A DNA stretch of 38,717 bases from Anaerolineae bacterium (GTDB lineage: Bacteria > Chloroflexota > Anaerolineae > Aggregatilineales > Phototrophicaceae): assembly GCA_022843745.1 (NCBI GenBank), contig JALHNB010000055.1, positions 1 through 38,717 of the forward strand, read 5' to 3'. How positions within the stretch are numbered: position 1 is the stretch's first letter; each line of letters opens with the position of its first letter. The translations under genes and the position numbers were made by a program. Positions 4,085-29,637 of this stretch are shown here, piece after piece. The notes below the pieces were generated by a model, which worked only from the letters and a program-made list of their open reading frames with translations, had not been told where the DNA came from and made no database searches.

Positions 4085-5953
4085 TTACGAGGCGAGTTCG
4101 CGGATGGGTATCGTGAAATGAAACGTCGTCCCCTGCCCCACTTCGGACTCTGCCCAGATGCGCCCATCATGCAGTTCTACCGCTTTCTTGCAGACTGCCA
4201 ACCCGATGCCCGTACCAGGATACTCGTCGGCAATATGGAGACGTTTAAAAATAATAAAAATCTGTTCCAGATACTGCTGCTCGATGCCGATGCCATTATC
4301 GCGCACTGAAAATACCCAGTGTTGATCCTTGCAGGTCGCGCCGATGTGGATTTCCGGTTTTTTCGCGCTGCGATACTTGATTGCATTTTCAATCAAATTC
4401 TGAAAAAGCTGGATCATGAGTTCTTCATCAGCGATGATTTTGGGCAGGTTATCATGGGTGATGTGAGCATCGGTCTCCGCTAACATCACTTCCAGAAATT
4501 GTATGGTTTTGTCCAGTACCTCCTGCATATCCAGCAGGGTGAAGGTGTGCGAACGACTCTCGACGCGCGAATACATCAGCAAATCCTGAATCAGGTTCTT
4601 CATGCGCAGCGCACCATCAACCGCAAATTTGATAAATTCACGACCTTCCTCATTCAGTTTGTCCGGGAAGCGCTGTTCAATCAATTGCAGATAGCTGGTT
4701 ACGGTGCGCAGCGGCTCTTGCAGATCGTGAGAGGCGACATAGGCATAGCGGCGCAGCTCCTCGTTTGATCGCTGCAATGCTGCCGTGCGTTCCTCGACTT
4801 TGTGTTCCAATTGCCCTGAGTAATCCTGTAATTCGTCGATCAGGCGGTGATTATCGAGAACGAGGATACACTCCCGAACCAGCAGTTCGAGAATTTTGAG
4901 GTCGTCATCAATAAAAAGGGAACGATCTCGCAGGGCAACGATCAGCAGCCCCCAGGAGCGCTCCTGATTGTGGATCGGCACGAGCAACCAGGTCTGCGCA
5001 CCGAGTGTCCGTAATTGGCGGCGTTCGTCGGCATCAGCAATATCAGGAAGAGAACGTGACATTGTCTGGCGATGCTGCCAGCCCTGATTGATGAACCGCT
5101 GACCATTTTGAATTAAACTGGCAAACAGCGCCTGGTCAGTCGCGGCGAGTATGTCCCACTCATTTGCGGACTCGTTGAGCCTCAACACGCCACCCGCCAT
5201 ACCATTAGTGGCTTGCTTCGCTCCCTGGCTCAACTGCCGGAAGTTATCGCTCACAAATGCCTCACTGGCAGGCGCTATTCTGGTTTGCAAGAGGTAATCG
5301 CGTAGTTCCTCCATTTGCCATGCAAGGCGTTGTCCACGTGGTGGCACAAAGGCCACGTAAAAAAACACGGCTGAAACTGCCGAGGCGATCTGAGCAATCG
5401 GGGTCGTGACAGGTGCGATGATGGGGAACTGCGCCTTGATAACATTGATGACGAAGGCCAATGTGAAAACAGCCGAACTGAGCGTAATAATCCACAGCCT
5501 GCGGCGAAGGGTCCCCACCGTCGCCTGCATACCCCGGTAAAACCCCAGCGTACAGTAGGCTTCGACAACCGCACAGTAGCCGAAAATGAGAACCACCGTG
5601 AGCGCCGGATTGGATACCATCCGAAACCAGAGCAAGGCACAGCTCAATAGAAAACCGACTACGATAATGATACCGATTCGTGGTCGGCTGGGGCGGAAGT
5701 ATTGAAGGAGGCGAAACAAAAAATAAGGCTGCGAAAACAGCACAAATGCGCCCGCAAGATCAAGCGCACCCGACTGGAAGAGCTGCAAATTGCGCAGCAG
5801 AACAAGGGCAAAGGGGAAGCCAAGTGCAGTCGCCATCAGGGCAAAGTCACGGCGGCGCGGGTCACGGTGACGGATATAGTCAACAATGGCAATCAAACTC
5901 AGCAGGATGAAAATAATCTGAGTATTAAAGGCAATAATTTCACTGATGTTCAT
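4085..5953 (-). CDS. Membrane-bound GAF sensor histidine kinase, orphan
   Basis: Sensor kinase of 622 aa. The N-terminal ~205 residues form about seven hydrophobic helices (a MASE-like sensor). A GAF-like domain follows (about 225-370), then a coiled coil around KVEERTAALQRSNEELRR, a HisKA dimerisation domain with the phospho-acceptor H-box ASHDLQEPLR, and a HATPase domain with N-box LIENAIKYR, G1 DNGIGIE and G2 GTGIGLAVCKKAVELHDGR. The layout resembles the phytochrome-like kinase group. ATG 5953 is preferred because GGAGG lies 7 bases upstream; the longer frame opens only with TTG 5998. No response regulator is adjacent, so its partner is elsewhere. The signal sensed is unknown. Confidence 0.93.
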   Translation of the reverse strand: MNISEIIAFNTQIIFILLSLIAIVDYIRHRDPRRRDFALMATALGFPFALVLLRNLQLFQSGALDLAGAFVLFSQPYFLFRLLQYFRPSRPRIGIIIVVGFLLSCALLWFRMVSNPALTVVLIFGYCAVVEAYCTLGFYRGMQATVGTLRRRLWIITLSSAVFTLAFVINVIKAQFPIIAPVTTPIAQIASAVSAVFFYVAFVPPRGQRLAWQMEELRDYLLQTRIAPASEAFVSDNFRQLSQGAKQATNGMAGGVLRLNESANEWDILAATDQALFASLIQNGQRFINQGWQHRQTMSRSLPDIADADERRQLRTLGAQTWLLVPIHNQERSWGLLIVALRDRSLFIDDDLKILELLVRECILVLDNHRLIDELQDYSGQLEHKVEERTAALQRSNEELRRYAYVASHDLQEPLRTVTSYLQLIEQRFPDKLNEEGREFIKFAVDGALRMKNLIQDLLMYSRVESRSHTFTLLDMQEVLDKTIQFLEVMLAETDAHITHDNLPKIIADEELMIQLFQNLIENAIKYRSAKKPEIHIGATCKDQHWVFSVRDNGIGIEQQYLEQIFIIFKRLHIADEYPGTGIGLAVCKKAVELHDGRIWAESEVGQGTTFHFTIPIRELAS

Positions 5954-6287
5954 GAAGCCCCCTCCACCCGCAGAAACTTGCGTCGATGAAGCAGACAAAA
6001 CGCCGTAAATAGAACCGAGCGTTTTAAAAATTACTCATCACCGCGCCTTGCCGAGAAACAGGAGAACTTAGTTGACTTGAACAGATTTCTCGTCGTGTGA
6101 AACTCTGCCGCAGCGATGTCCTGACATCTGAAAAACCAGCGCACCGATCCGCAGCGATGCGTCATATGAGGAAGAGATGGTTGATGCAGAGTTAGCGTTA
6201 ATATACCCCCTAAGACTGCCGAAAACATAGGTCAACTGGCCTATCATTATCCCTATATGTGAGCATCAATCGTATGTTTTAAATTGG
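5954..6287. other. Intergenic stretch without a recognisable gene
   Basis: About 330 bp between the histidine kinase and the oxidoreductase gene, both on the minus strand. Only short frames without coding character are present. A small inverted repeat (ATAGG...CCTAT near 6220-6236) and a TTGACC on the minus strand at about 6227-6232 lie here, but no -10 box at suitable spacing was found. It presumably holds the kinase promoter. Confidence 0.5.
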
Positions 6288-7163
6288 TTAGAACCACTCC
6301 TCCATCATGTTACGCGCCTCGCGCAGTTTTTTGACATGCTCGTCCAGCGTCGTAAAGCCCATGCCCATCGTGCTGATGCTCAGATGCGTCGCGTCGATTT
6401 CGTCCCAGGCGCGCACCGTGTCCGCCAATTCAGGGATTGGCAGTCGTGCCAGATGCAAACGCGGCTCGATTCCCACGTCCTCGACTTTTCGCCCCGCCTC
6501 GACAATGTATGCCCGAAACTGAGCGATCAACGCGCGGCCTTTTTCATCCAACTGCGTCTGCGGAAACCAGCCGTCGCCGATCCGTGCAGTACGTTTCAAC
6601 ACGATATCCGCCTCACCACCAAACCAGATCGGAATCGGGCGCTGAATCGGCATCGGCAAAATTCCGGCTTCGGGGATGTGATGCCACTGACCGTCAAATT
6701 TCACGACTGGCTGAGTCCACAGCAGGCGCAAAACTTCGACCTGTTCCTCGCTGCGTTTGCCGCGATTGTGAAAATCCTCGTTGAGCGATTCGTACTCGAC
6801 TTCGTTCCAGCCTGTGCCGATCCCCAGGCGCACACGTCCCCCACTGAACAGGTCAAGCTGCGCCGCTTGCTTGGCGACCAGCGCCGTCTGCCGCTGCGGG
6901 AGGATCAGAATTCCGGTCACAAATTCCAACTGCGTCGTGATGGCGGCGGCATAACCGAACAGCATAAAAATCTCGTGAAACAGCGTTTCCGAGTTATACG
7001 GCCCTTTCCAGTTCGGGCGATTCGCCAGCCCCGCGCCCAACACGTGGTCATAGGCCAGCAGGTGCTTATAGCCCATGCCCTCTACCGCCTGGATATAGTC
7101 GCGAATGGCGATCACATCTGTTCCGCTTTCCGTCTGTGGGAAAACGACTCCAATTTTCATCAT
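6288..7163 (-). CDS. LLM-class (F420-type) oxidoreductase
   Basis: Cytoplasmic flavin/deazaflavin oxidoreductase of the luciferase-like monooxygenase fold (TIM barrel). The N-terminus MKIGVVFPQTE, the YDHVLGA segment and the RLGIGTGWNEVEYESLN motif match the group annotated as TIGR03619-like F420-dependent oxidoreductases; PIPIWFGGEADIVLKRTARIGDGW is the second conserved block. ATG 7163 (or the adjacent ATG 7160) follows AAGGA at good spacing; an in-frame start at 7184 lies upstream of this ribosome site and is not preferred. Length of 291 aa is normal. Cofactor F420 versus FMN cannot be decided from sequence alone, and the substrate is unknown. The gene is divergent from the glycosyltransferase pseudogene. 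Confidence 0.9.
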   Translation of the reverse strand: MMKIGVVFPQTESGTDVIAIRDYIQAVEGMGYKHLLAYDHVLGAGLANRPNWKGPYNSETLFHEIFMLFGYAAAITTQLEFVTGILILPQRQTALVAKQAAQLDLFSGGRVRLGIGTGWNEVEYESLNEDFHNRGKRSEEQVEVLRLLWTQPVVKFDGQWHHIPEAGILPMPIQRPIPIWFGGEADIVLKRTARIGDGWFPQTQLDEKGRALIAQFRAYIVEAGRKVEDVGIEPRLHLARLPIPELADTVRAWDEIDATHLSISTMGMGFTTLDEHVKKLREARNMMEEWF

Positions 7164-7224
7164 GATTTTTTTCCTTGTGTACACAACAGCAAACCATATC
7201 CGATATTATTCCTACAGGCAAGGC

Positions 7225-7294
7225 TATGCTATATTGGAATCATGATGATAGATAACATCATAATCATGACGACACCATGATGAAGGAAATGCTG
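7225..7294 (+). promoter_or_regulatory. Duplicated promoter/leader, copy 1
   Basis: TATGCTATATTGGAAT (7225-7240) includes an extended -10 box (TG-C-TATATT). A later block, TGACGACACCATGATGAAGG (starting 7267), ends in a ribosome-site-like GAAGGAA. Both blocks recur at 8811-8855, directly before the SH3 gene. Copy 1 carries 26 bp between the blocks containing an ATGATG...CATCAT inverted repeat. The leader is followed by a short dead-end ATG frame, and the glycosyltransferase gene starts 45 bp later. Confidence 0.55.
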
Positions 7295-7338
7295 CCGACA
7301 ACTGGGGTTATTTACTCGTGAAAGGCTAAAAGCTCAGC

Positions 7339-8799
7339 GTGTCAAAATCGCAAGTTAAACCACGCATTATTATTCTCCTGCTCGCAGCCTGGGTAGTGAT
7401 GACCATCCGTTTGAGCGTTCCCTGGTTTGGCTATCACGATTCAAATGGTGCCATGTTCAGTATTTTTGTTCGCAATTATCAATGGTACGGTATGCCAGCA
7501 GTCGGTTTTATGCAAGTGCTGAACCCTGCACCGACGACCCCTGACCAGTTTCACTATTACCAACATCATCCTATCCTGACTGCCTGGGTATCTGCGCTTT
7601 TTAGCAGTGTCGCTGGCTTAAACGAAGTTTCAATGCGCATGGTGTCGATTTTGGCATCAATGATTAGCATAACCGCCTTTTACGTCATATGTCGTCGGCT
7701 TTATGGGGCGCGAGTGGGCTGGTGGGGTGCCGCTTTCTACGCAGCGTCACCCATGATCGCCTATTTTGGCCGAATGTCGAACCATGAATTGTTGACGTTG
7801 ATGTTCTTGATGCTGTTTACCTGTATCCTGATCAACTGGCTGCGAAAGCCAAGCCGGGTACGATGGTGGGCATTATTGATATTTGGGATTCTTGCTGTCT
7901 GGACGGCCTGGGCTGCGCTGTTTTTTATTGCTCTATTCGTTTTGCTAACATTGTGGATAGGATCGCGGGCGCAACGACAAGCAATGATTGTGCTGGGTGG
8001 CCTGACCGTCCTCAGTGTTATCGGACTGGTTGCATTTTATCAAGCTCAGTGGTCTGGCACGATTGCCGATTTGATCGAAGTTTTTATATGGCGCAGCAGT
8101 CCCACAACTTTGAGACGCGGCTCACAGAGCTTTACAATGCTGGAATAGTCAGGGAGGCAGTTCCAGGATATGATGTATTTTGCGACCCCTACCCTGGTTT
8201 TCCTGGCTTTTTGGGGCGGGATTCACATCCTGCGTTCCGGCACAAAACAGACGAGGGCGTTTCTGCTCGCTCTGCTTGTGTCAGGAATCGGTTATATACT
8301 GGTTTTCCGCAACGCTTCTTTTATCCACAGTTACTATAAGATTTATCTTTTCCCTGCTCTGGCGTTGGCTGCGGGCGCAGCGCTTATACCCAGTGCTCAA
8401 CCGAGAACACGGCGCAGTGACCGCAGAATTCATGCCGTCAAAGTTGCTTTTATCGTGCTGACATTCGTGACCAGTGGATACATCGTTTGGGCGCTCCATC
8501 GTATTCTCGACCAGAATAATCTGATGCCACTCGTAACAGGCATTGTCGAAAACACTTCTCAGGACGACCATATTCTATCTAATTTACCGGATACGGGTTT
8601 TGGCCTCGAATACTATGCAATGCGTCCAATAGAATATGAGATTGACCCCCAAACAGCCCTTAAGCTGGCTGAGAGCCTTCCACAAAATCAGGCCTACCTA
8701 TTTTGCGGGCAGGGTAATCCTGCAATCGAACTGGATGCCTATACCTATGTGGTGCTGGGTAATTGCCGCTTGTATCGCCTAAGTACCTCATCAGGATGA
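7339..8799 (+). pseudogene. GT39-like glycosyltransferase broken by compensating frameshifts
   Basis: Two open segments in the same frame (7339-8148 and 8170-8799) together encode a ~485-aa polytopic membrane protein of the PMT/ArnT-like type. Visible are helix 1 with RLSVPWFGYHDSNG (candidate catalytic Asp), YYQHHPILTAWVSALF, and a further helix block with a C-terminal soluble part. The frame is closed by TAG 8146-8148. In the +2 frame the intervening stretch reads naturally as HNFETRLTELYNAGIVREAV, so a one-base loss near 8095-8105 and a one-base gain near 8160-8175 explain the break. Start is GTG 7339 with no good ribosome site. Either a decayed gene or two assembly errors. It lies exactly between the two leader copies. 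Confidence 0.75.
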
Positions 8800-18000: not shown

Positions 18001-18858
18001 GTGCGACCAGACGGCACGGATTCGCGCATCCTGTTCGAAGCCGAAGAGACCGAGGACACCTACGACTGGCCGGAGGACATCTGGTGGTCAGGCGCGAACA
18101 CACTCGAATATTACAACTACGGCGAAAGCACCAATGACGAAGGCGAAACCATTTACGGCTATTTTTACTTCCGCGATATTCTGGGCGTTTTCCCAGACCC
18201 CAAACCCTGGGATGGCGACATTTACTTCAATGATGATTACGCCGAGATGATTGCGCGGCAGCCCGGTGGCGATCTGGTCGTGGCGCGGCAGACCTTCAGC
18301 ACAGGCGTGAACCCCGGCTACACCTACTATCTCTATAACACCGTCACCGGGGAAGCCGACTATTTTGCCCGTCTGACCGAATATCCGGAGCAGGATTTGA
18401 CCGTTCTGTGGCATCCACTCGGCACAAAGCTTTATTATCACTACCCAACGCCGGAAAATCAGCCCGTCATCTGGTACATTTTTGACCCCGCCACGAGCCA
18501 GCACACGCGCCTCAACGAACTGTATTGGGGCGAATGGTCACCGCAGGGTCGCTACGTGGCCTACGCGACGAACAGCCGCACCCAACCGTTGGGCATCTGG
18601 GACGGCGAAACCGGGCTTTTCCGCACCTACTGTATCCCCGAAACCGGAGCGCGATTATACGACGGGCCGATTTTGTGGTCGCCGGATGAGCGCTACATCG
18701 CCCTGCAAACGGGCTTGCCGAAGGACGAATCGCAGGAAGGTGTCGGCGAACATATCCTGATTCTGGACATCGAAACGGGCAGCGTCACCGATCTTTCGTA
18801 TGGTGAAGGGCCATTGTATCTGTGGGCTGTCGAGCCGGGGACGGAGGTGGGGGAATGA
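15064..18858 (+). CDS. Giant secreted beta-propeller (WD40/TolB-like) protein
   Basis: Extracytoplasmic protein of 1264 aa. A signal peptide (LIFAIFLVAIAIVGVTLAQ) is followed by WD40-like blades (FSHDGRWLALAVETRIELWNTETGEL; FSGDDQRVLVRN; WRLWNAETGEV) over about residues 40-620. A middle helical part (about 640-770) contains two Cys-bracketed stretches (GCLYYIY...FAC and MCLLSRY...LVC). A Thr/Pro linker near 860-885 precedes a second propeller (ISPDSRWILAFGINEIFVVRPDG; WSPQGRYVAYATN; WSPDERYIALQTG). Such proteins usually mediate protein-protein contacts at the cell surface. The stop overlaps the ATG of the SH3 gene (ATGA), so the pair is translationally coupled. The ligand is unknown. Confidence 0.85.
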   Translation: MRHTRLIFAIFLVAIAIVGVTLAQQSELSGTAFQVVSELGRAVPKSMIYDPNFERYAVIDAYGKLMLVDAQTFEEQHVLYEYGAFNDLAFSHDGRWLALAVETRIELWNTETGELTADLTDLSQAKRVHGPLTFARDDNLLLFFGTYPAPPELRRFEDDTTTVPWLWNLTKARDEGDSTFPRNVEALAFFDYRNGFVLGPDNRIVAALPGRLNVIDAYSTDVLYDIDTARYEQDPMDVWFSRRDNRIYIRPVEEFSLIQVDTQRGVLVEFPLSQELTLNDLQTIGGIELGTTAQVIGGAASTQKIPLLEVLLGYDYRDYEPWLNHPLTVTLIDALEPPTGDEAQLRPLLFVFDEETQKGQFVFSRSYIASQLVFSGDDQRVLVRNVGGEEEKIEIYDLASGRLEQSLIPALRDSYYSPSRKNRILAYDQSGETIISDFQRYEAATTDVIAEDLRYSQRFDRFFFSGDNIVTLSGSEWRLWNAETGEVIERKVLSFNGDIIAAAPDGYQFLTRFYTNEDQGAEILDVTSGERRTVRFTELRGRFIEDVLPSADWEHFLVIYSTNSYGPYDPGNEIAMYSMEDGGQQWFMAGDDLPYPYGRSYGWVDNSTVYVYGEDGEQPEREYATEEEYIPPYETDDTLGCLYYIYFYAGVDYETLESVYPQIEAALSPQAMSELTTFACNRAREIEASWTETSGTVTRTPPAPLVVANVPMCLLSRYGEHSQALVTDWQNLIASLPEEEGAEMAALVCEGISNADRLPASFAPQTMMIDAESGVRSFGDYTPPGNIRPISPILTEFERTEERSMGAAILSPDESLVAASSLPGELIIYRFVSASYRALLDFGTATAGAVFDAENRIGALPSPTPTFSPLGTARPTLTPTITPTPPPRAETLADLPRLGETENLCPAETLYSIDAPPPDYNPAGRLIAPVTGDEEWAINPASGRRNPDETIPTCQFGLTCKISPDSRWILAFGINEIFVVRPDGTDSRILFEAEETEDTYDWPEDIWWSGANTLEYYNYGESTNDEGETIYGYFYFRDILGVFPDPKPWDGDIYFNDDYAEMIARQPGGDLVVARQTFSTGVNPGYTYYLYNTVTGEADYFARLTEYPEQDLTVLWHPLGTKLYYHYPTPENQPVIWYIFDPATSQHTRLNELYWGEWSPQGRYVAYATNSRTQPLGIWDGETGLFRTYCIPETGARLYDGPILWSPDERYIALQTGLPKDESQEGVGEHILILDIETGSVTDLSYGEGPLYLWAVEPGTEVGE

Positions 18859-19973
18859 ACGCACATTCATTTTTGACGCAAAGGCGCAAAGAACGCAAAG
18901 GAACGCAGAGAATTTTAGAATCATATGCAAAATGGGCGTTTTTCCGTAGGGGCGACATTGTAGGGGCGCATGGCTGTGCGCCCAAATCCTTTTACATCCC
19001 TGTTTTCTCCGCGTCCCTTGCACCTCTGCGCCTCTGCGTTGCGCTTCTCACCTTCCTGATTCTCGCCACGCCCATGCTCGCCCAGGACGAATCCGTCTAC
19101 GTGACGACGCAGGATTTCACGTCGTTTCGCGCTGGGCCGGGGCGCAGTTTTGAACGCATCGCCGTTATTCCCGCAGCGACGACACTCCACGCCATTGGGC
19201 GTACTACCGATAACCGCTGGATTCAGGTCGAGTATGAAAATCAACGCGGCTGGGTCGTTTCGTGGCTGCTGGTGTGGACAGGCGATGTGCTGACGCTCAA
19301 ACTGGACGGACTCGACCCGCTTCCGTTCGCCCGCCGCATCAGCGTGACCATGACCGCCAACCGTGAAGCGCCCTATTATGCCAGCTACGAATCCGGCGTT
19401 CGCCTGGGAACGATTCCCGAAGGCACGCGCGTAGAGATGACCGGGCGTTTCGGCTCTGGCCGGACGATCTGGCTGCAATTCGAAAAAGATGGGCAATATG
19501 TGTGGTCGGGCGCGTGGAATTACAATATTCGCGGCGATTTTCTGACGCTGCCGGATGCCGCCTCGATCTATCCCTACGGGCGTTTACTCGGCAAGCTCAA
19601 CACCGGAATCAGCAATACCGAGGACAATTTTTCGGACATCGCGTTTATCTGGCGCAGCCTTGCCAGCGGGGAAAGCGTGACGTGCGACGACCTGCCACGC
19701 CCTGCCCGTGTGATCGAATTTTCGACGGATGACGTGGCGGATGCCGAACTGCTGATGCCTGCCGTGAGCGCCGTCGCCTCAGCCATCGACCACACCAACA
19801 CGGCGATTCAGATGTTCGCGGACGTGTGCGCGTTGGAAGGCGCGGATCGTTACCTCACGCCGGAGCAGATCAACGCCGCGCTTGCCGAAGTGGATGCCGC
19901 CGCCCGCGATTTCGTGCTGGCGGAAAGCCTGTTCGAGCCGCTGACACGGAGGGATCCGTCGGTGGGGAATTGA
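18855..19973 (+). CDS. Secreted SH3 protein with repeat-derived N-terminus
   Basis: Protein of 372 aa. ATG 18855 overlaps the preceding stop and is preceded by GGAGGTGGGGG. The first ~50 residues (LTQRRKERKGTQR; RRGDIVGAHGCAP; APLRLCV) are encoded by an 8-mer array, a palindromic repeat and an inverted 8-mer array. The hydrophobic core ALLTFLILATPMLAQ follows this, so the signal peptide has a ~60-residue n-region. SH3 domain 1 spans about 78-140 (FRAGPGRSFERIAVIP; GWVVSWLLVW) and domain 2 about 160-225. The C-terminal helical region is bounded by Cys (VTCDDLP and FADVCALE), as in the 8859 gene. The last 20 codons (FVLAESLFEPLTRRDPSVGN) recur twice downstream behind unrelated genes. Confidence 0.85.
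   Translation: MNAHSFLTQRRKERKGTQRILESYAKWAFFRRGDIVGAHGCAPKSFYIPVFSASLAPLRLCVALLTFLILATPMLAQDESVYVTTQDFTSFRAGPGRSFERIAVIPAATTLHAIGRTTDNRWIQVEYENQRGWVVSWLLVWTGDVLTLKLDGLDPLPFARRISVTMTANREAPYYASYESGVRLGTIPEGTRVEMTGRFGSGRTIWLQFEKDGQYVWSGAWNYNIRGDFLTLPDAASIYPYGRLLGKLNTGISNTEDNFSDIAFIWRSLASGESVTCDDLPRPARVIEFSTDDVADAELLMPAVSAVASAIDHTNTAIQMFADVCALEGADRYLTPEQINAALAEVDAAARDFVLAESLFEPLTRRDPSVGN
18875..18910 (+). repeat. 8-bp-period CGCAAAG array, copy 2
   Basis: ACGCAAAG, GCGCAAAG, AACGCAAAG, GAACGCAGAG in tandem, translated as part of the N-terminus of the SH3 protein. It is inverted relative to the array at 19007-19044, and a palindromic repeat lies between them, so the three together look like a small MITE-like element. 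Confidence 0.75.
18946..18983. repeat. Dispersed GGGGCGCA palindrome, copy 4, with a partial duplicate
   Basis: A partial unit GTAGGGGCGACATT (18946-18959) is followed by a full unit GTAGGGGCGCATGGCTGTGC plus GCCC (18960-18983). It lies in frame in the SH3 gene, encoding RRGDIVGAHGCAP. Confidence 0.75.
19007..19044 (-). repeat. 8-bp-period CGCAAAG-type array, copy 3
   Basis: On the minus strand ACGCAGAG, GCGCAGAG, GTGCAAGG, GACGCGGAG. It is the inverted partner of 18875-18910. Its plus-strand translation (APLRLCVAL) forms the beginning of the signal-peptide hydrophobic core. Confidence 0.7.
19911..19973 (+). repeat. Gene-end tag, copy 1 (native 3' end of the SH3 gene)
   Basis: The last 20 codons plus stop of the SH3 gene. 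Copies 2 (21275-21338) and 3 (21748-21820) follow the next two genes. Shared core: TTCGAGCCG then TGA, a variable part, GAT, CCGTC or CAGTC, and GTGGGGAATT before the stop. Confidence 0.85.
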
Positions 19974-20004
19974 AGGTAAAAAAACAATTGAGCATCAACC
20001 CAAA

Positions 20005-21243
20005 ATGAAAATCACTTTGTATGTATTTCTAATTGCCATATGCCTATCTTCAAGGGCAGTATTTGGGCAATCTTTGGTATTTGAGGATGCTGTTGATTGT
20101 AGGCTTTATCCTGAATTACCGCCGGATGAAGCGGCTATAGCTTATCGAAACTTAGCCGCTAGACAAGATCAAAATCAAAACTATACTGAAGCGATTATTA
20201 GTTTGAGTTGCGCTATCCAACTCAAGCCAGATTATGCGTTAGCATATTACGAGCGTGGGAGTATTTTTCAAGTAGTCGGAGACTACTCTCAAGCAATTGC
20301 AGATGCTTCACAAGCCATCGAACTAAAGTTTTCACCAATAGACTGGGTTTACGATGTAAGAGGCTGGACTTATTTCAACTTGGGAGAATACGAATATGCT
20401 ATCGCTGATTACAATCTGGCTATCCAGTTTATTGAAGATACAATGCAGCTTCCAAAATATTACTTTTCCAGAGGGGCTGTATACCAGAGGCTAAATAATC
20501 ATATTGAGGCAATCCAAAACTTCACTTTAGCAATAAAAATTGACTCTAACGACTCAGGCGCTTACAACAGTCGAGGCGTGAGTTACTATGAACAAGGTGA
20601 ATATCAATTCGCACTTGCAGATTATAATAGAGCGATTGAGCTTGATCCCACAAATGCGAATATCTATTACAATCGCGGTGGAGTTTATGATGAGTTAGGT
20701 GATTATGAAAGCGCCATTTCAGATTACAATAGGGCAATTCAACTAGGCCAAACTGAGAATTTAACGAACTACTACACTGTACGTGGCACATCTTATACCC
20801 ATATGGGTAACTATGAGCAAGCTCTCGCAGATCACAATTATGCGATTGAACTAGCCCCCCAAAATCCTGCTGCATATTACAATCGCGGAAAAACTTACGA
20901 ACAGCAAGACGAATATCGGCTTGCCTTGCATGACTACAATACATCGATAGAGCTTGATCCTGATGGATATATAGGTGCATATATCACTCGGGGAGATATC
21001 TATAAGAAAATTGGTGATGATCAAAAAGCTGAAGCAGATTATATTCATGCTACTTTGTTAGATCCAGACATGGCTGATGCTTATAAACAACTTGGACGCT
21101 TATACGACTCACAATTCAAATATCCCCGGGCATTGGAGAATTATCACACCTATCTAGACCTCGCGGGCGAGGACACCGATCCTGAAATCGCGAGACGTGT
21201 TCTAGAGCTGGAGCGAGGCCAAGTTAGCTTAACTGGGCTGTGA
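20005..21243 (+). CDS. Secreted TPR-repeat protein
   Basis: Extracytoplasmic protein of 412 aa: signal peptide (ITLYVFLIAICLSSRAVFG) followed by about nine tetratricopeptide repeats from residue 45 to the end. Clear units include AYYERGSIFQVVGDYSQAIA, AYNSRGVSYYEQGEYQFALA, IYYNRGGVYDELGDYESAIS and AYKQLGRLYDSQFKYPRALE. TPR arrays are protein-protein scaffolds. The gene is visibly more AT-rich than the SH3 gene before it and lies between two copies of that gene's 3' tail, which points to insertion of foreign DNA. ATG 20005 has no strong ribosome site; the upstream tag ends in GTGGGGAATTGAAGG, 29 bases before. Partner unknown. Confidence 0.85.
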   Translation: MKITLYVFLIAICLSSRAVFGQSLVFEDAVDCRLYPELPPDEAAIAYRNLAARQDQNQNYTEAIISLSCAIQLKPDYALAYYERGSIFQVVGDYSQAIADASQAIELKFSPIDWVYDVRGWTYFNLGEYEYAIADYNLAIQFIEDTMQLPKYYFSRGAVYQRLNNHIEAIQNFTLAIKIDSNDSGAYNSRGVSYYEQGEYQFALADYNRAIELDPTNANIYYNRGGVYDELGDYESAISDYNRAIQLGQTENLTNYYTVRGTSYTHMGNYEQALADHNYAIELAPQNPAAYYNRGKTYEQQDEYRLALHDYNTSIELDPDGYIGAYITRGDIYKKIGDDQKAEADYIHATLLDPDMADAYKQLGRLYDSQFKYPRALENYHTYLDLAGEDTDPEIARRVLELERGQVSLTGL

Positions 21244-21274
21244 CTAGAACTACTCGGCAAAATAGCTATTTCAT

Positions 21275-21338
21275 TACTGTGCTGGCGGAGAAACTGTTCG
21301 AGCCGTTGACTCGCCGCGATCAGTCAGTGGGGAATTAG
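21275..21338 (+). repeat. Gene-end tag, copy 2 (orphan)
   Basis: Encodes TVLAEKLFEPLTRRDQSVGN and a stop without any start: the same tail as the SH3 gene end. It begins 31 bp after the TPR gene stop and ends six bases before the next gene. Its GTGGGGAATTAGG may serve as ribosome site for GTG 21344. Confidence 0.85.
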
Positions 21339-21343
21339 GCATA

Positions 21344-21820
21344 GTGGAAAGTAAACAACATCCTTTTAACTTCATCCCTGGATGCTTTTTTGCAGCCGCC
21401 GCAGTTTCTTGCGGGTGTATATTCGGCCTGCTAAATGAGTTTGGTTGTAAGGGTACGTCTACAACCCTAGGTACAAAGCAATGCACCTCTGAGTATTCAA
21501 ATTTTGTTTTGATATTTTCATTCTTGAGTCTCGTGTTCATGCTGGCGCTGCTTGCTGTTACGGCTAATCTCAGTTTTCGTCCTAAAATCAGACTCGCAGC
21601 GTTTGGGGTCTTTATCATCTACGGGATTTGGCTAATTTTTTCTCGTCTATGCTTTGGAATATTCCATACTTCACGACTCGCTATTAGCCATCCAATGTTG
21701 ATCGGAATTGTCTTGAATGCACACTCCTACACCAAAATGATTAATTCGCCCGCGATTTTGTGCTGGCGCAGAAGCCCGTTCGAGCCGTTGATGCGCCGCG
21801 ATCCGTCAGTGGGGAATTGA
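21344..21820 (+). CDS. Small hypothetical membrane protein fused to a gene-end tag
   Basis: Unrecognised protein of 158 aa starting at GTG 21344. About three to four hydrophobic segments (13-32, 53-75, 82-105 and a weaker one near 115-130), Cys-rich near the first loop. The last 13 residues, FEPLMRRDPSVGN, match the C-terminus of the SH3 protein because the frame runs into tag copy 3; the tag has gained one base, so upstream of that point it is read out of frame (ILCWRRSP). The natural stop of this gene may therefore be lost. The gene is AT-rich like the TPR gene, and both lie between tag copies. Confidence 0.5.
   Translation: MESKQHPFNFIPGCFFAAAAVSCGCIFGLLNEFGCKGTSTTLGTKQCTSEYSNFVLIFSFLSLVFMLALLAVTANLSFRPKIRLAAFGVFIIYGIWLIFSRLCFGIFHTSRLAISHPMLIGIVLNAHSYTKMINSPAILCWRRSPFEPLMRRDPSVGN
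21748..21820 (+). repeat. Gene-end tag, copy 3 (orphan)
   Basis: CGCCCGCGATTTTGTGCTGG (from 21748) through GTGGGGAATTGA matches 19901-19973, extending ten bases further 5' than copy 2. It carries one extra base in GCGCAGAAGCCCG compared with GCGGAAAGCCTG of copy 1, so the ancestral reading frame is shifted inside the copy. Confidence 0.8.
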
Positions 21821-21842
21821 AGAGAATTACCAGCATCCGCTA

Positions 21843-21964: not shown

Positions 21965-22010
21965 TGGTGGAAGATAAACGCGAAAGTCGAGGTTTTGGAT
22001 CGATTCTAAA

Positions 22011-22051
22011 TCCTTTGCGCCTCTTTGCGACCTCTACGCCGTTGCGTCAAA
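22011..22051 (-). repeat. 8-bp-period CGCAAAG array, copy 4, at the 3' end of the Rieske gene
   Basis: On the minus strand TTTGACGCAACG, GCGTAGAG, GTCGCAAAG, AGGCGCAAAG. The stop codon of the Rieske gene (22047-22049) lies inside the first unit. Confidence 0.7.
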
Positions 22052-24889: not shown

Positions 24890-24932
24890 CTACCGCGCCA
24901 GTTTTCTCGCTGCGTCCTCCGCTAACATGCGC
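24890..24932 (-). pseudogene. Orphan duplicate of the 3' end of the TipAL-like MerR gene
   Basis: On the minus strand this encodes MLAEDAARKLAR and a stop. A 39-bp block (24894-24932) matches 28806-28844 of the MerR gene at 37 positions by direct comparison. Homology stops at ATGCGC, so only the last 13 codons are present. With the native copy it forms direct repeats around the 3.9 kb that hold the sugar permeases and the two-gene unit. Confidence 0.8.
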
Positions 24933-24987
24933 CTTTTGTGAACTCGTAGACGATTTAAAATCGCGCTAAAATAGAATTTGAAATAGG

Positions 24988-25005
24988 TGCGTACACCAAT
25001 ACGCA
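24988..25005. promoter_or_regulatory. Candidate operator before the sugar permeases
   Basis: Perfect inverted repeat TGCGTA-CACCAA-TACGCA, 11 bp upstream of ATG 25017 and next to its ribosome site. An AT-rich TAAAATAG stretch about 15 bp upstream could hold the -10 box. Binding by a regulator is inference. Confidence 0.3.
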
Positions 25006-25016
25006 GGTGGGGGCTT

Positions 25017-25913
25017 ATGAACAAGTCGAACCAGAACGGCATTTCGTTCATCTTGCCAGCCGTTGCATGGGTAGCGGCTCTAACAATTTTCCCGTTGGCT
25101 TATTTGGTCTATCTCAGCTTTACGGACTATCGGGCTATCAGACCGGGTCAGGGTTTTATCGGCCTGGAAAATTACCAACAGTTATTCATGGATCGCTCCA
25201 TCGTTGAAGCTCTTCTACGAACACTGTTTTTCGCGATCAGCAGCACGGCGATCACTCTCCTTTTAGGAACAATCACCGCCTGGATATTCAGCTACGATCT
25301 GCCCGGCATCCGTTTTTTGCGATCTGTATTTGCCGCGCCGCTTTTCACCATGTCAGTGGCAGCAGCGACCATCGGGCGCTTTCTGCTTGCCTCTAACTTC
25401 GGCCTTTTCCCGGAAATACCTTTTCTGAATGATCCTGCACTTGCCGGATACGCGCTGATCGCCGTTGATGTCTGGCAGTGGACACCCCTGGTATTTGTCG
25501 TGGTTTTGAATGCCTTGCGTCATATCCCTGGCGCAGAAATCGACAATGCGCGTCTGGATACCAAATCCGACCTGACGATTTTTTCAGTTGTCGCTTTTCC
25601 ACGTGTACGCCGGGCGCTGCTGCTTGTGGCATTGCTTCGCCTCATTGAATCGCTGCAAATGTTCGACCTCCCCTACACGCTCACAAACGGCGGCCCTCTG
25701 AATTCGACGACGACATTGGGTTTGGCGGTTTTCAAATATACCTTCCAATTCTTTGATATCGGCTACGGCTCGGCAGTGGCGGTCATATTATTGATCCTGG
25801 TCGCGATCATTTCATTCGTCTTCTTCCGGGTGATGGGTCAGCGATTCAAGACTGTCGTTGCGAACCCGCGCACATCGCTCAAATCCTATCTGGAGGCTTT
25901 GCGAAGTCAATGA
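25017..25913 (+). CDS. Carbohydrate ABC transporter permease (MalF/UgpA type)
   Basis: Inner-membrane sugar permease of 298 aa with six helices. Family marks include FPLAYLVYLSFTDY near the N-terminus, FIGLENYQQLF and the TNGGPLNSTTTLGLAVFKYTF block. The cytoplasmic EAA loop is atypical: EIDNARLDTKSDLTIFSVVAFPRV replaces the usual EAAxxDGAxxWxxFxxIxLP, losing the Asp-Gly-Ala core that docks on the ATPase. ATG 25017 follows AGGTGGGGG; the in-frame GTG/ATG further upstream has no site. It overlaps the next permease gene by ATGA. No ATPase or binding protein is nearby, so a shared MsmK-type ATPase is likely. The substrate may relate to the adjacent uronate-type enzymes. Confidence 0.92.
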   Translation: MNKSNQNGISFILPAVAWVAALTIFPLAYLVYLSFTDYRAIRPGQGFIGLENYQQLFMDRSIVEALLRTLFFAISSTAITLLLGTITAWIFSYDLPGIRFLRSVFAAPLFTMSVAAATIGRFLLASNFGLFPEIPFLNDPALAGYALIAVDVWQWTPLVFVVVLNALRHIPGAEIDNARLDTKSDLTIFSVVAFPRVRRALLLVALLRLIESLQMFDLPYTLTNGGPLNSTTTLGLAVFKYTFQFFDIGYGSAVAVILLILVAIISFVFFRVMGQRFKTVVANPRTSLKSYLEALRSQ

Positions 25914-26794
25914 TCAACAACCGACGCTTTCAAACTCCTCCTCGCCGCCTCCCAAAATCAACCTCGCCGATTGTCATTCAGGTGGCTGCCTTTGTGATCG
26001 CCCTAGTGATGGTCGCCCCACTGCTCCTGATATTTTCGCTCTCCCTTAAAAGCCCGCCGGATATGTTCAGGTATCCGCCCGCCTGGATTCCGTTTGTCCA
26101 GTTCACGCCAACAGCCCAGAATTGGCAGGAGGTTTTCTCGCTTTCGGTTGGTAGTGTGACCACACCACTCATCAACAGTACATTGGTGGCGGGCATCTCG
26201 ACCATTTTTGCAGTGGGTGTTGGCAGTCTTGCCGGGTATGGACTGGCGCGGTTCAGGTACAGCGTGGGCAATCAAAATCTGATGTTCTTCCTGCTGATCC
26301 CGCGATTGATTCCCTCGATTGTAATCGCAGTCCCCTTGTTCCTGATCGTCCGAGAAGCCGACCAGTTGGATACATTGACCGGGTTGATTTTCGCACATAC
26401 AACGCTGCTGCTACCGCTTGCTACCCTCATTATGCGCGAATATTTTGCCGGATTTTCGAATTCCGTGACAGAGGCTGCCCGCGTCGATGGGGCTGGACTG
26501 CTGCAAACCTTTCGGCTGATTGCCCTGCCGAATGCCCGTGCTGCACTCGTGGCTACCGCCATTCTCTGTTTCATTATTTCGTGGAACGATTTAGATTTTG
26601 CCCTGATTTTTACGAACAGCATCCAGAACTCAACCGCCCCGCTATGGCTGTTGCGGTTCCAGGCTCAATACATGGCCGAATGGGGGCCTGTGGCGGCGAT
26701 GGTCATTATTGTGATCGCATTACCGATTGCGCTCTCGTTTCTCGTTCAGCGCTACATCTTCACAGGGCTGTCACTGGGGATCGCGCAAGAATAA
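25910..26794 (+). CDS. Carbohydrate ABC transporter permease (MalG/UgpE type)
   Basis: Second sugar permease, 294 aa, six helices, with a canonical EAA loop (TEAARVDGAGLLQTFRLIALP) and the usual N-terminal PLLLIFSLSLKSP region, as well as LIPRLIPSIVIAVPLFLI. It pairs with the MalF-type subunit, with which it overlaps by 4 bp. The C-terminus QRYIFTGLSLGIAQE is normal (GLTxGAVKG-like). It converges with the small gene on the minus strand, the two stops being 3 bp apart. Confidence 0.93.
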   Translation: MINNRRFQTPPRRLPKSTSPIVIQVAAFVIALVMVAPLLLIFSLSLKSPPDMFRYPPAWIPFVQFTPTAQNWQEVFSLSVGSVTTPLINSTLVAGISTIFAVGVGSLAGYGLARFRYSVGNQNLMFFLLIPRLIPSIVIAVPLFLIVREADQLDTLTGLIFAHTTLLLPLATLIMREYFAGFSNSVTEAARVDGAGLLQTFRLIALPNARAALVATAILCFIISWNDLDFALIFTNSIQNSTAPLWLLRFQAQYMAEWGPVAAMVIIVIALPIALSFLVQRYIFTGLSLGIAQE

Positions 26795-26797
26795 GCG

Positions 26798-27190
26798 TTA
26801 TCGCCCCAGCGTGAGAATCTGCCCGATGATCTGGGTGGCGATGAGCAAAACAGTGGGCGCAATATCCGCGAGATTTTGAGCAGCGGCTTTCAGATTTTCA
26901 CCCTTAATTTCCAGCAGCTTGCGATTGGGTTTTTCCTGCGTACCCGCCTGAACCAGTTCCTCGGTCAGCGCACCAACAACTTCAACGTCGTCCGCTTTTT
27001 CCTGCGGAATCTGCGCCAGGGCTTCGCGAAGCTGTTTCACAAGTTCATCCAGCGAATTCTGGAAATCGCCGCTGTTCACGTACTTGTGCTGTTCGGCGTG
27101 GGCGTTTGCGCCGACGGCGATCACCTCCGCCTTTATGTTATTCGCCTGAATACCTTCATTTTTTGTGCTTTTGTTGCTCATGTTGCTCAT
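26798..27190 (-). CDS. Small protein of an unrecognised two-gene unit
   Basis: Soluble 130-aa protein, not assigned to a known family. The N-terminus carries NEGIQANNIKAEVIAVGANA (11-30), a motif also found at the C-terminus of the upstream protein. The middle is helical and charged (about 40-80: DELVKQLREALAQIPQ; VVGALTEELVQ), and the C-terminus NLKAAAQNLADIAPTVLLIATQIIG is amphipathic to hydrophobic and could insert in a membrane. Its start overlaps the end of the 497-aa gene by 4 bp, so the two are coupled. Similar proteins with a GIxANNIxAxxxAVGxxAxA opening seem familiar from Chloroflexota and Cyanobacteria, but I cannot give a function. Confidence 0.7.
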   Translation of the reverse strand: MSNMSNKSTKNEGIQANNIKAEVIAVGANAHAEQHKYVNSGDFQNSLDELVKQLREALAQIPQEKADDVEVVGALTEELVQAGTQEKPNRKLLEIKGENLKAAAQNLADIAPTVLLIATQIIGQILTLGR

Positions 27191-28680
27191 GTGGTTGGAT
27201 TCCTTAGTGGCTCTTCCTTCGCGGGTTTTTCATTCGTCGCTGCACGAGCGCCCTCACCCACCGCCAATGCCTGGGCCTCGACATTTCCGCCCTGCACAAT
27301 AATTCCAGTGTTCAGGATGCTGGTGCGGCGTTCTTTCAGGTCGGTGGTGCTGATACGATGATCCGCCAGAAAATCGACGATAGCGTCCAGGATCGTGCGT
27401 TCGATAACCTTGTTGTACATTTCCTTATCAAGAACCTGAAAATAATGCTGGTAGCGCTGGCTGCTAACCATGTCGCGCACACTGGTCGAAATACCCCAAT
27501 CATAGCGCGGGTTCTCGTCAATTTCGTCGCACATCGCTTCGTCCAGTTTGCGTTTCCGGCGGCCTTCCATCCATGCGCCCAACCACATTCCGATGTACTC
27601 CAGTGGCAGGAAAACGCCGCCGATCAGGCTGAAAGGCGCCATCACCACATAGCCGATGATTTTCAGGATGGCATCGATAATCCGCCGCAGCCAGCCTTTC
27701 TCATCATCTTTCTGGCGACGGTTATCCAGTTCGCGATACGCATCGGCAGGCGGCGTGAGCAAAAAACGGCTGTGTTCGGTGAACAAATTGTTGCCACGCA
27801 ACGAGAAACGGAGAAAAACAGACAGTATGAGGGAGTCACTGGCGTAGTGAACACGAATCCATTTATAGTACCGGATCAAGGGGTCGTTATTCGCCAGATA
27901 AGCCTGGAGAGATTCGGAGTTGAGTTCCTGAACAGGTCGGTTGTAATGATTTGGCAAGATCGAGTCGTTATCGCGAATATCCAGGCCATTGACGTAAATC
28001 ATGTCCTGGAAATGAAGCCCCGCAAATTGCAGTCCATTCAGGCGCTCCTGGACAAATTGGTACAGTTCGGCGACCTCAAATGAAATGGGGTCTAGCGTTT
28101 GGCCGCTAAGTGGGTCTTCCTTACCATAAGTAACATTCGTCGCAAATGACCAATGATCCAAGTTGATTCCTGCCCCGATAAAAGGCAAAAATCCGCTGTA
28201 AACAACGACATTCTGGCTGGATTTTGGCATCCCACTTTCAATGTCCGGTTTCAGCGGGATATGCCCGAATACTTCTTGTATCTTGTCGGGGTCATAATTT
28301 CGGCGTTTGAAATGGTCGAGCAGCGTTTCCGGGTCATATTGTTCCTGGGCGGCAGATTGTCGCCATTGGATGACAGCCCCGACTGCAAACAGTACAATGA
28401 GGGTCAGCGCCGAGCTGCGAGAAACGGCAAACACAATGACCAGGATAATCGCCAGCGCTAAAAATATCCAGCCGAACCGCCGTCGGATGCGGCTGCGTTC
28501 CTCCTCCCAGTCTTCAATCAGAGCGACCACCTGCATCAACAGCCGCATATCCAGCCCGATTTCCGGTGCGGTTGCGACATATTTCTGCTCGAAATGCTCG
28601 GTCAGCTTGTTTCGAAATGTTGCACCGAGCAAAATTACACTTGCGCACAACAGGCGCGTTACATCATTAAACTTGTCCAT
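27187..28680 (-). CDS. Membrane protein of an unrecognised two-gene unit
   Basis: Protein of 497 aa. The N-terminal DKFNDVTRLLCASVILLGATFRNKL and a conserved-looking EIGLDMRLLMQVV precede two hydrophobic helices (about 68-87 and 90-106). A soluble middle (about 115-330) contains SGFLPFIGAGINLDHWSF and FQDMIYVNGLDIRDN. A second hydrophobic region (335-372) precedes a helical C-terminal domain and the tail NTGIIVQGGNVEAQALAVGE (from about 457), which is shared with the small partner. I have seen similar N-termini in actinobacterial hypothetical proteins, without known role. ATG 28680 follows a G-rich GGGGGGG site, and TATAAT lies at 28697-28702 on the minus strand. Confidence 0.75.
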   Translation of the reverse strand: MDKFNDVTRLLCASVILLGATFRNKLTEHFEQKYVATAPEIGLDMRLLMQVVALIEDWEEERSRIRRRFGWIFLALAIILVIVFAVSRSSALTLIVLFAVGAVIQWRQSAAQEQYDPETLLDHFKRRNYDPDKIQEVFGHIPLKPDIESGMPKSSQNVVVYSGFLPFIGAGINLDHWSFATNVTYGKEDPLSGQTLDPISFEVAELYQFVQERLNGLQFAGLHFQDMIYVNGLDIRDNDSILPNHYNRPVQELNSESLQAYLANNDPLIRYYKWIRVHYASDSLILSVFLRFSLRGNNLFTEHSRFLLTPPADAYRELDNRRQKDDEKGWLRRIIDAILKIIGYVVMAPFSLIGGVFLPLEYIGMWLGAWMEGRRKRKLDEAMCDEIDENPRYDWGISTSVRDMVSSQRYQHYFQVLDKEMYNKVIERTILDAIVDFLADHRISTTDLKERRTSILNTGIIVQGGNVEAQALAVGEGARAATNEKPAKEEPLRNPTT

Positions 28681-28801
28681 ATCCCCCCCATTTTGGATTA
28701 TATGGAAACGATGTAATTGATTTGTATAAGATTATAGCGCCAGAAGTCCAAATCTGCATGTCTTCACTTCCAGCCTCAGCCTTCTGCCACGCCATGTCCC
28801 T

Positions 28802-29605
28802 CTATCGCGCCAGTTTTTTCGCTGCGTCCTCCGCCAACATGCGCTCAAGCTCCGCCGTTTCCAGATCATCGACGTACTGCGTGATCGAGTCCTGCAAAAA
28901 CTGCGGCAGATCGGGATGCAGCTTCGTGAAATTGGCGATGAAACGCGCATCGGTGTTGTAGCCCACGCCTAACCCGCGCATAATCTCCAGAGTCGGCTCG
29001 TAGAAATAGTAGATGTGTTTGTGCCAGCGCTTCAGAATGTCCTGAACTTCGGCATCCTCCGGCGGCGTTCCGGCCTCAATCGCCTTCACGAGATCGGCGT
29101 AAACCTGATTGCCCTCCTCGCCAATCGCCTGCCGCTGGCTCTCGGTGTAGCCGTTCCAGCGCTTGATCGACTGGTTAACGGTGTCTGGGTCCCATTGCAG
29201 ACGCGCCTCGCGCTCATACTGCTTCTGTTCCTCCTCGCTGAAGGCTTCAAATAGCTGTTTTTTGCTCATTTCGACTTCCCCTCCCAGATAACGAATCGTC
29301 GTGTCTACGGTGCTGACCAGATTTTCCAGCCGTTCGATTTTTTCTTGCAGCGCTTTTCGATGCGAACGCAGCGCGGCGACCACATCAAAATCGGCGCTGT
29401 CGAGAATGTCCTTGATCTGAAGCAGTTCCACGCCCATCTCGCGATAAAACAGGATTTGCTGAAGCCGCAGCAGCGCGTTATCGTCGTAATAGCGATAATT
29501 GTTCTCGCCGACTTTCGACGGTTTCAGTAAGCCGATTTCGTCGTAATAGTGGAGCGTCCGCACGCTCACCTCGGCCAGATCGGATAGCTGTTTGACGGTG
29601 TACAT
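28802..29605 (-). CDS. MerR-family regulator with TipAS ligand-binding domain
   Basis: TipAL-like transcription factor of 267 aa. The N-terminal winged helix (YTVKQLSDLAEVSVRTLHYYDEIGLL) is followed by the recognition wing (NNYRYYDDNALLRLQQILFYREMG), a coiled coil (LRSHRKALQEKIERLENLVS) and a C-terminal TipAS-type domain (about 130-260: KQLFEAFSEEEQKQYEREARLQW; RWHKHIYYFYEPTLEIMRGLG). TipAS domains bind hydrophobic or thiopeptide antibiotics. ATG 29605 is chosen; TTG 29614 is an alternative. The gene lies behind a promoter with the 19-bp spacer typical of MerR control. The last 13 codons (MLAEDAAKKLAR and stop) are duplicated at 24890-24932. Confidence 0.93.
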   Translation of the reverse strand: MYTVKQLSDLAEVSVRTLHYYDEIGLLKPSKVGENNYRYYDDNALLRLQQILFYREMGVELLQIKDILDSADFDVVAALRSHRKALQEKIERLENLVSTVDTTIRYLGGEVEMSKKQLFEAFSEEEQKQYEREARLQWDPDTVNQSIKRWNGYTESQRQAIGEEGNQVYADLVKAIEAGTPPEDAEVQDILKRWHKHIYYFYEPTLEIMRGLGVGYNTDARFIANFTKLHPDLPQFLQDSITQYVDDLETAELERMLAEDAAKKLAR

Positions 29606-29637
29606 CGCACTCAACCTCGCATCGAAAACTCACAAGG

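Follow-up and report, generated by a model that had tools for sequence, protein, structure and literature searches.

Organization of the SH3 array

The window analyzed here is a stretch of 38,717 nucleotides (nt), bases 1-38717 of contig C55 (JALHNB010000055.1; 47,877 bases), from the 7.96 Mb genome of an Anaerolineae bacterium (G000). It contains an array in which the 3' end of a gene encoding an SH3_3-domain protein (the SH3 gene) is present three times; these copies will be called tags 1 to 3 and the genes lying between them the cargo. The order is a WD gene, the SH3 gene with tag 1, 31 nt, a TPR gene, 35 nt, tag 2, a small membrane-protein open reading frame (ORF), tag 3, and a Rieske-type gene on the opposite strand. 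The coordinates are collected in Table 1.

The copied part is the final ~75 nt of the SH3 gene (60-75 nt) and the edges of the copies are sharp. The direct repeats flank the inserts and take in the SH3 3' end with its stop codon, and the downstream fragments of the gene each adjoin unrelated DNA. Pairwise, tags 1 and 2 are 83% identical, tags 1 and 3 85.5%, and tags 2 and 3 88%. A search for the tag in the whole genome returned exactly three places with E-values of 3.6e-36, 1.6e-17, and 3.2e-10, and the copies are therefore far beyond chance. The initial annotation, which had reported three copies of this gene end, was correct, and the tail occurs at no other place in the genome. The sign of a cassette system that it had named, many copies that each follow a different gene, is not seen for this tag.

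The two downstream copies had also been described as lying after the cargo genes in the form of the last SH3 codons. They are located there, but tag 2 starts 35 nt past the TPR stop codon in a different frame and is not part of the TPR gene, and in tag 3 a 1-nt insertion relative to the SH3 frame leaves just the last 13 codons to be read, which form the C-terminus of a 158-amino-acid ORF. An alignment of homologues showed that the part encoded by the tags is the C-terminus, which is conserved across the SH3 family. By our reading, tags 2 and 3 carry the frameshift and most of the nonsynonymous changes, as expected of dead copies, and the differences from tag 1 that they share appear by eye to be nearly all synonymous. 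At positions where tags 2 and 3 have the arginine codon CGC (55% in the WD and SH3 genes), tag 1 has AGG (3%) or CGG (13%), which are rare in these two genes.

The sequences before tags 2 and 3 and after all three tags are unlike each other (shuffle p 0.30-0.60, six comparisons). None of the three tags folds better than shuffled sequences on either strand (z -0.92 to 0.63), with no hairpin and no attC-like fold, and a degenerate form of the tag had no match in the viral contigs searched. A family search with the whole block of 1971 bases resulted in matches in 5 of 98 genomes, own genome counted, when the best three candidates per genome were considered. The matches elsewhere were in the TPR repeats or the membrane ORF and none was in the tag, although with three candidates per genome this search is weak for tags alone.

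The cargo genes are AT-rich, as had been stated, with a G+C content (GC) well below the 0.58-0.59 of the WD and SH3 genes (Table 1). In a sample of 395 other genomes of the class no firm homologue of the membrane ORF was found, and phages, plasmids, and viral contigs had none either. The best matches to the TPR protein in the sample are three TPR proteins encoded elsewhere in the same genome (phmmer scores of 375, 166, and 162). Import of the TPR gene from a relative with the order SH3-TPR was considered and dropped, since the SH3-linked TPR proteins tested score lower (112 or less). Neither a polymorphic toxin or immunity family among the SH3, TPR, and membrane proteins nor a homing endonuclease in the cargo was recognized. 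The true start of the SH3 gene is probably later than 18822. Inverted copies of a dispersed repeat (18872-18915 and 22008-22051) bracket the SH3 gene and the cargo, possibly by chance; the left arm has nine matches in the 2.04 Mb genome sample described below.

The claim that no recombinase is nearby holds for tyrosine recombinases, as none of the 16 Phage_integrase matches in the genome is on contig C55; serine recombinases and transposases were not searched for. These 16 matches also provide no integron integrase beside the array, with the IntI subgroup not modelled apart.

Table 1. Positions of the SH3 array and of further loci with a duplicated gene end. Positions are on contig C55 unless another contig is named; paired ranges are the two copies.
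Feature	Position	Strand	Copied block	Description
WD/beta-propeller-like gene, 1264 amino acids	15064..18858	+		Conserved partner upstream of SH3 gene; weak Pfam match below cut-off
SH3_3-domain gene	18822..19973	+		Longest ORF; Pfam SH3_3, E 1.2e-12
Tag 1	19901-19975	+		Functional 3' end of SH3 gene, stop at 19971-19973
Cargo 1, TPR protein, 412 amino acids	20005..21243	+		Signal-like N-terminus by our reading; GC 0.41
Tag 2	21279-21338	+		Displaced SH3 tail, intergenic; a few further upstream bases align across a 6-nt insertion
Cargo 2, body of 158-amino-acid orphan ORF	21344..21746	+		Membrane-protein look by our reading; GC 0.415
Tag 3	21747-21822	+		Displaced SH3 tail with 1-nt insertion; last 13 codons close the membrane ORF
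Displaced MerR tail	24890..24932	-	40/43 nt identical (93%)	Stop codon included
Interval between MerR tails, 3.87 kb	24933..28801			Two ABC-permease-like ORFs (+; Pfam checked for the first only); 130- and 497-amino-acid ORFs (-)
3' end of MerR/TipAS-domain gene (28802-29614)	28802..28844	-		Pfam; second case inside the window
ABC permease gene	C55 45001-45295		50 nt, 86%	0.2-kb repeat-like insert behind the gene
DUF2461 gene	C52 27609-27716/29111-29218		108 nt, 90%	Insert with DUF1801 and Polyketide_cyc2 ORFs
499-amino-acid gene without Pfam match	C68, L129 7726-7767/8761-8802		42 nt, 88%	Five codon changes, all synonymous
DeoR-family gene	C11 1007-1095/1915-2003		89 nt, 92%	Insert GC 0.43
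Weaker case	C11 78388-78428/81623-81663		41 nt, 83%	Ends 76 nt short of stop; chance could explain it
Mirror case (L199)	C11 9019-9108/11384-11473		~90 nt	Start codon of a short ORF included, copied upstream; 2.3 kb between

The locus in related genomes

The WD-SH3 gene pair is widespread in the family, and in one clade two TPR genes and another ORF come after the SH3 gene. The named relatives that were matched are mostly metagenome-assembled genomes from Anaerolineae or Chloroflexi. A second WD-SH3 operon is present in the same genome (L034; C7 127000-142000), likewise continues with two TPR genes and another ORF, and encodes an SH3 protein that is ~45% identical to that of the window. In a tree of the WD proteins (20 rows) the window groups with loci L059 and L069 with support of 100/98, and in the SH3 tree (23 rows) it is not firmly placed. 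A hybrid operon with the WD gene from one clade and the SH3 gene from another was hinted at by the identities and was not upheld after L059 and L069 were added.

Both L059 and L069 have the gene order PBP-WD-SH3 with a single tail and no repeated tail. Nine loci of the PBP-WD-SH3 clade (L036, L043, L044, L059, L062, L063, L064, L067, and L069) gave no match to either the TPR or the membrane protein of the window; two of them (L036 and L063) have little downstream sequence. Among eight loci of this clade, six have no repeated tail downstream and two have chance-level matches only (E 0.065 or worse). Because the nearest relatives are without both, the two cargo genes and the two extra tails are most simply explained as additions in the lineage of the window. 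The empty site with a single tag that the initial annotation had proposed to look for is seen only at the level of genes: the nearest relatives have one tail and no cargo, but they are only 41-54% identical.

Similar arrangements behind other genes

Beyond what the initial annotation had described, the tail-cargo-tail plan recurs in this genome with the tails of other genes. These scans covered a sample of 2.04 Mb (26% of the genome). Among the 1378 ORFs in the first 1.64 Mb of the sample, 26 had an isolated copy of their last 75 nt within 6 kb downstream and 2 more had one upstream. The same scan resulted in 8 copies of the first 75 nt and 2, 3, and 0 copies of inner 75-nt segments. In the controls, the 3'-end counts were three matches on two genes in genome G027 (144 ORFs), 0 in genome G008 (162 ORFs), and 0 in E. 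coli (306 ORFs), and the 5'-end counts were 3, 1, and 0, respectively. The 3'-end matches in this genome split into two classes, one with cargo and one of tandem copies.

The firm 3' cargo loci are the SH3 array and five more, each with an unrelated gene: those of the MerR gene, the ABC permease gene on C55, and the genes on C52, C68, and C11 (1007-1095). The copied block reaches the stop codon in the SH3, MerR, C55, and C68 cases; in C52 and C11 it ends before the stop codon, by 17 and 52 nt, respectively. The first cargo ORF of C68 has no firm homologue in 297 other genomes of the class. The mirror case on C11 was filed as intergenic by the script, and the assignment of a gene start is our reading; its insert carries genes for a NapC/NirT-type cytochrome and for a cytochrome c552 protein. 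Members of repeat families, pairs inside genes, and the intergenic pairs at C9 71513/78298 and C11 36002/43038 (3-4 copies in the sample) were kept off the firm list. Run on the controls, the firm-pair scan gave two pairs in G027, both multi-copy, and five in E. coli; G008 had none. One of the E. coli pairs touches a stop codon, and 11 of its 44 nt lie within the gene. That six of the seven firm loci are at 3' regions and one is at a 5' end is suggestive of a 3' bias but does not prove it.

DeoR orthologues from nine genomes (66-78% identical) were tried as judges of which tail is native and were too distant for this purpose. The gene behind the DeoR array, which we take to be a HAD-like ORF, was not found beside these orthologues. 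Of the ten loci read for this comparison, only three had the orientation that the script took for granted.

The second class consists of cargo-less tandem duplications across stop codons, which were found at 31 of 1698 ORFs versus 1 of 792 ORFs in four control sets (Fisher p 1.5e-4). Other tandem duplications in the sample comprise 8 that span a start codon and 30 that are intergenic; the density of the intergenic ones is not clearly above that of E. coli (25 in 163 kb of the first sample versus 5 in 47 kb). Of the 69 non-genic arrays, 30 have units of 30-34 nt, the sharp main peak of the length distribution; a second peak lies around 66 nt and corresponds to three copies in several of the arrays that were read. 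Examples with a unit of ~33 nt that span a stop codon are located at C1 173178-173214, C3 133497-133541, C5 144651-144685, and C11 71055-71083. This class resembles a general and neutral tendency of the genome toward duplication; it is not obviously the product of the same process as the cargo class with its tails of 39-108 nt. The literature listings that touch on this subject contained no match for stop-spanning tandem duplications, and no claim is made that the findings described here are unpublished.

Interpretation of the array

We favor the reading that the array is the scar of two successive recombination events, each of which inserted foreign DNA at an anchor in the SH3 tail, much as has been proposed for Rhs tips and for the immunity arrays of the Vibrio type VI secretion system. 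We give this reading a probability of roughly 0.45. Incoming DNA, linear or circular, would carry a related SH3 tail followed by a foreign gene, and this tail would recombine with the resident SH3 tail. The SH3 gene would retain a complete 3' end with the foreign gene directly behind it, and the old resident tail would be pushed downstream as a dead remnant. In the likely order the membrane ORF would have entered first, leaving tag 3, and the TPR gene second, leaving tag 2. Insertion at the gene 3' end with the end re-created, probably driven by homology as in one option of the initial annotation, is the likeliest account of the locus; the extra tags and the cargo are missing at the orthologous locus of the nearest relatives.

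This reading draws on the three tags that are unique and local, their sharp edges, the shift in GC, the single tail and absent cargo in the nearest relatives, and the like plan behind other genes. It is supported by the fact that tags 2 and 3 are more alike than either is to tag 1 and look dead, by the unusual arginine codons of tag 1, and by the want of firm homologues for the membrane ORF and the first C68 cargo ORF in the genomes sampled. From these observations we infer that homology anchored the recombination, in which order the insertions occurred, and that tags 2 and 3 lack function.

Several results weigh against it. The searches for a donor returned no SH3 tail followed by this TPR gene or membrane gene, and the window TPR protein is not especially close to the SH3-linked TPR genes of other relatives. 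The nearest relatives are distant (WD 52-54% and SH3 41-45% identical), and the empty site is therefore seen at the gene level and not at the base level. At 39-108 nt the displaced tails are short, and a broad range of lengths would be expected from plain homology-facilitated illegitimate recombination. The 3'-end rate in G027 is not lower than in this genome, the G008 and E. coli controls are small, and the cargo class is not demonstrably commoner here than in other genomes. The codon changes in seven tail pairs, 22 synonymous and 19 nonsynonymous by a scripted count, do not differ from those expected of one constrained and one free copy (46% expected, p 0.20) or from those of the cargo-less tandem copies (15/26, p 0.18). 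When the weakest pair is left out the count is 21/14, with p values of 0.07 and 0.06, respectively. An earlier count of 16/9 (p 0.04 and 0.013), which was partly made by hand, has been replaced by the scripted count of 22/19, which includes two more loci and is not significant. The synonymous-change tests are thus not decisive between insertion and target duplication. With no donor found, short tails, and indecisive codon tests, both target duplication and an origin from paralogues stay live.

The main rival is insertion with local duplication of the target, which we regard as unlikely but as the most serious of the alternatives. A staggered break in the tail would be filled in and foreign DNA caught between the new copies, or the DNA would enter an existing tandem duplication of the tail; the bias toward gene ends would arise as only those insertions that leave the gene complete survive. 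The abundance of cargo-less stop-spanning tandems in this genome, the codon-position pattern of the tags, which fits one constrained and one free copy, and the mirror case at a gene start are consistent with such a process. The tails that flank cargo, however, are without the ~33-nt unit of the tandem class, and the firm cargo cases are unevenly divided between 3' regions and 5' ends. Additionally, end joining of the Ku type was considered and set aside, as a Ku gene was looked for and none was found.

It is more doubtful that the tags go back to tandem SH3 paralogues of which the 3' ends alone were left after the bodies had been lost or other genes had taken their place. This collapse had been offered in the initial annotation, and it is weakened but still live. 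In L062, two adjacent SH3 ORFs (5596-6411 and 6466-7494; 271 and 342 amino acids) are ~53% identical and the first is shortened mid-gene. This pair indicates, at the level of sequence, that tandem SH3 paralogues do arise in the clade of the window; it restores the paralogue explanation as a live one and lowers the odds of anchored insertion and, slightly, those of target duplication and of site-specific integration. The conserved family C-terminus encoded by the tags and the mostly synonymous differences between tag 1 and tags 2 and 3 would also fit paralogues. L062 is the only one of the 22 loci scanned with a second comparable SH3 gene beside the first, and the extra matches in the other 21 are low-scoring. 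A protein search with the whole SH3 gene found only the tag between 19973 and 21340, and the tail-only pattern is seen behind five unrelated genes, both of which argue against lost SH3 bodies.

Site-specific integration at the gene 3' end by small cis-mobilizable-like elements that have no recombinase of their own, with the tag as the att core, appears very improbable. The tags do take in the stop codon, the left edges of tags 2 and 3 differ by no more than ~6 nt once the gapped upstream match of tag 2 is included, and the Phage_integrase proteins of the genome could act in trans. These proteins are encoded on other contigs, however, and the tail is that of a different gene in every firm case with no shared core that we could see. 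The tag is found neither elsewhere in the genome nor in the viral contigs searched, the inserts encode few genes, and the tags carry indels and form no hairpin. A dedicated integron-like system with the coding tag as its recombination site, which the order gene-tag, gene-tag, gene-tag brings to mind, was rejected as less probable still given three copies in 7.96 Mb, none in viral contigs, and folds no better than shuffles. The cassette-like landing proposed in the initial annotation thus survives as insertion at a 3' end with re-creation of that end and not as a cassette system that uses the tag.

Comparison with known systems

In integrons, cassettes follow each other in a gene-site-gene-site order and the attC sites form imperfect hairpins. 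The SH3 array has the same alternation, but it has no attC-like fold, its site is not repeated elsewhere, and its tag is coding.

For the C-terminal tips of Rhs proteins, sequential insertions through homologous recombination with a circular intermediate have been proposed (Jackson et al. 2009, PMC2935791). As in the SH3 array, a gene is followed by a string of its own fragments that are each joined to different downstream DNA. In Rhs genes, stretches of the conserved core serve as anchors and the new C-terminus is supplied by the cargo (PMC2935791). In the SH3 array the anchoring stretch is the final 60-75 nt, stop codon included; the C-terminus of the SH3 protein is retained and the cargo is made up of separate genes. 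In the immunity arrays of the Vibrio cholerae type VI secretion system, successive modules land behind a conserved anchor and push the older genes and the 3' end of the effector downstream, and a process akin to homology-facilitated illegitimate recombination was proposed (Kirchberger et al. 2017, PMC5361080). The SH3 array differs in that no effector or immunity family was recognized; its anchor gene encodes an SH3 protein and its cargo a TPR protein and an orphan ORF. Homology-assisted illegitimate recombination has also been discussed as a source of small variable segments (PMC2884548).

The nearest look-alike is found in fungal mitochondria, where mobile endonuclease ORFs are associated with carboxy-terminal duplications (Beaudet et al. 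2013, PMC3630166). A gene there receives a foreign 3' end together with the inserted ORF, the native 3' end lies beyond the insert, and the changes in the native end are largely synonymous. The insert in the mitochondrial genes encodes a homing endonuclease (PMC3630166), in contrast to the cargo of the SH3 array.

Every element of the SH3 array has a precedent, and the array is a variant by its anchor (the very end of an ordinary gene), its orphan cargo, and its recurrence in one genome. The displacement scars found in print are from toxin/immunity, Rhs, and mitochondrial loci. Those described here are behind ordinary genes (for an SH3 protein, MerR- and DeoR-type regulators, an ABC permease, and a DUF2461 protein) and recur in a single genome. 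If this is general, gene tails would be landing places for the entry of genes without a recognizable mobile element, and each event could be counted computationally by the displaced tail that it leaves. A broader proposal would be that foreign genes frequently enter this lineage at the 3' ends of resident genes with no dedicated recombinase involved, the gene end being rebuilt each time, and that the tail-cargo-tail loci and the ~33-nt stop-spanning tandems are two products of one break-and-fill process; we consider this improbable, and more so than a paralogue origin of the tags.

Additional observations

Three near-identical blocks of 46-100 nt are located beside small genes on another contig (C46 35462-35518, 36899-36998, and 37549-37648), and they include a hairpin-like stretch and a T-run.

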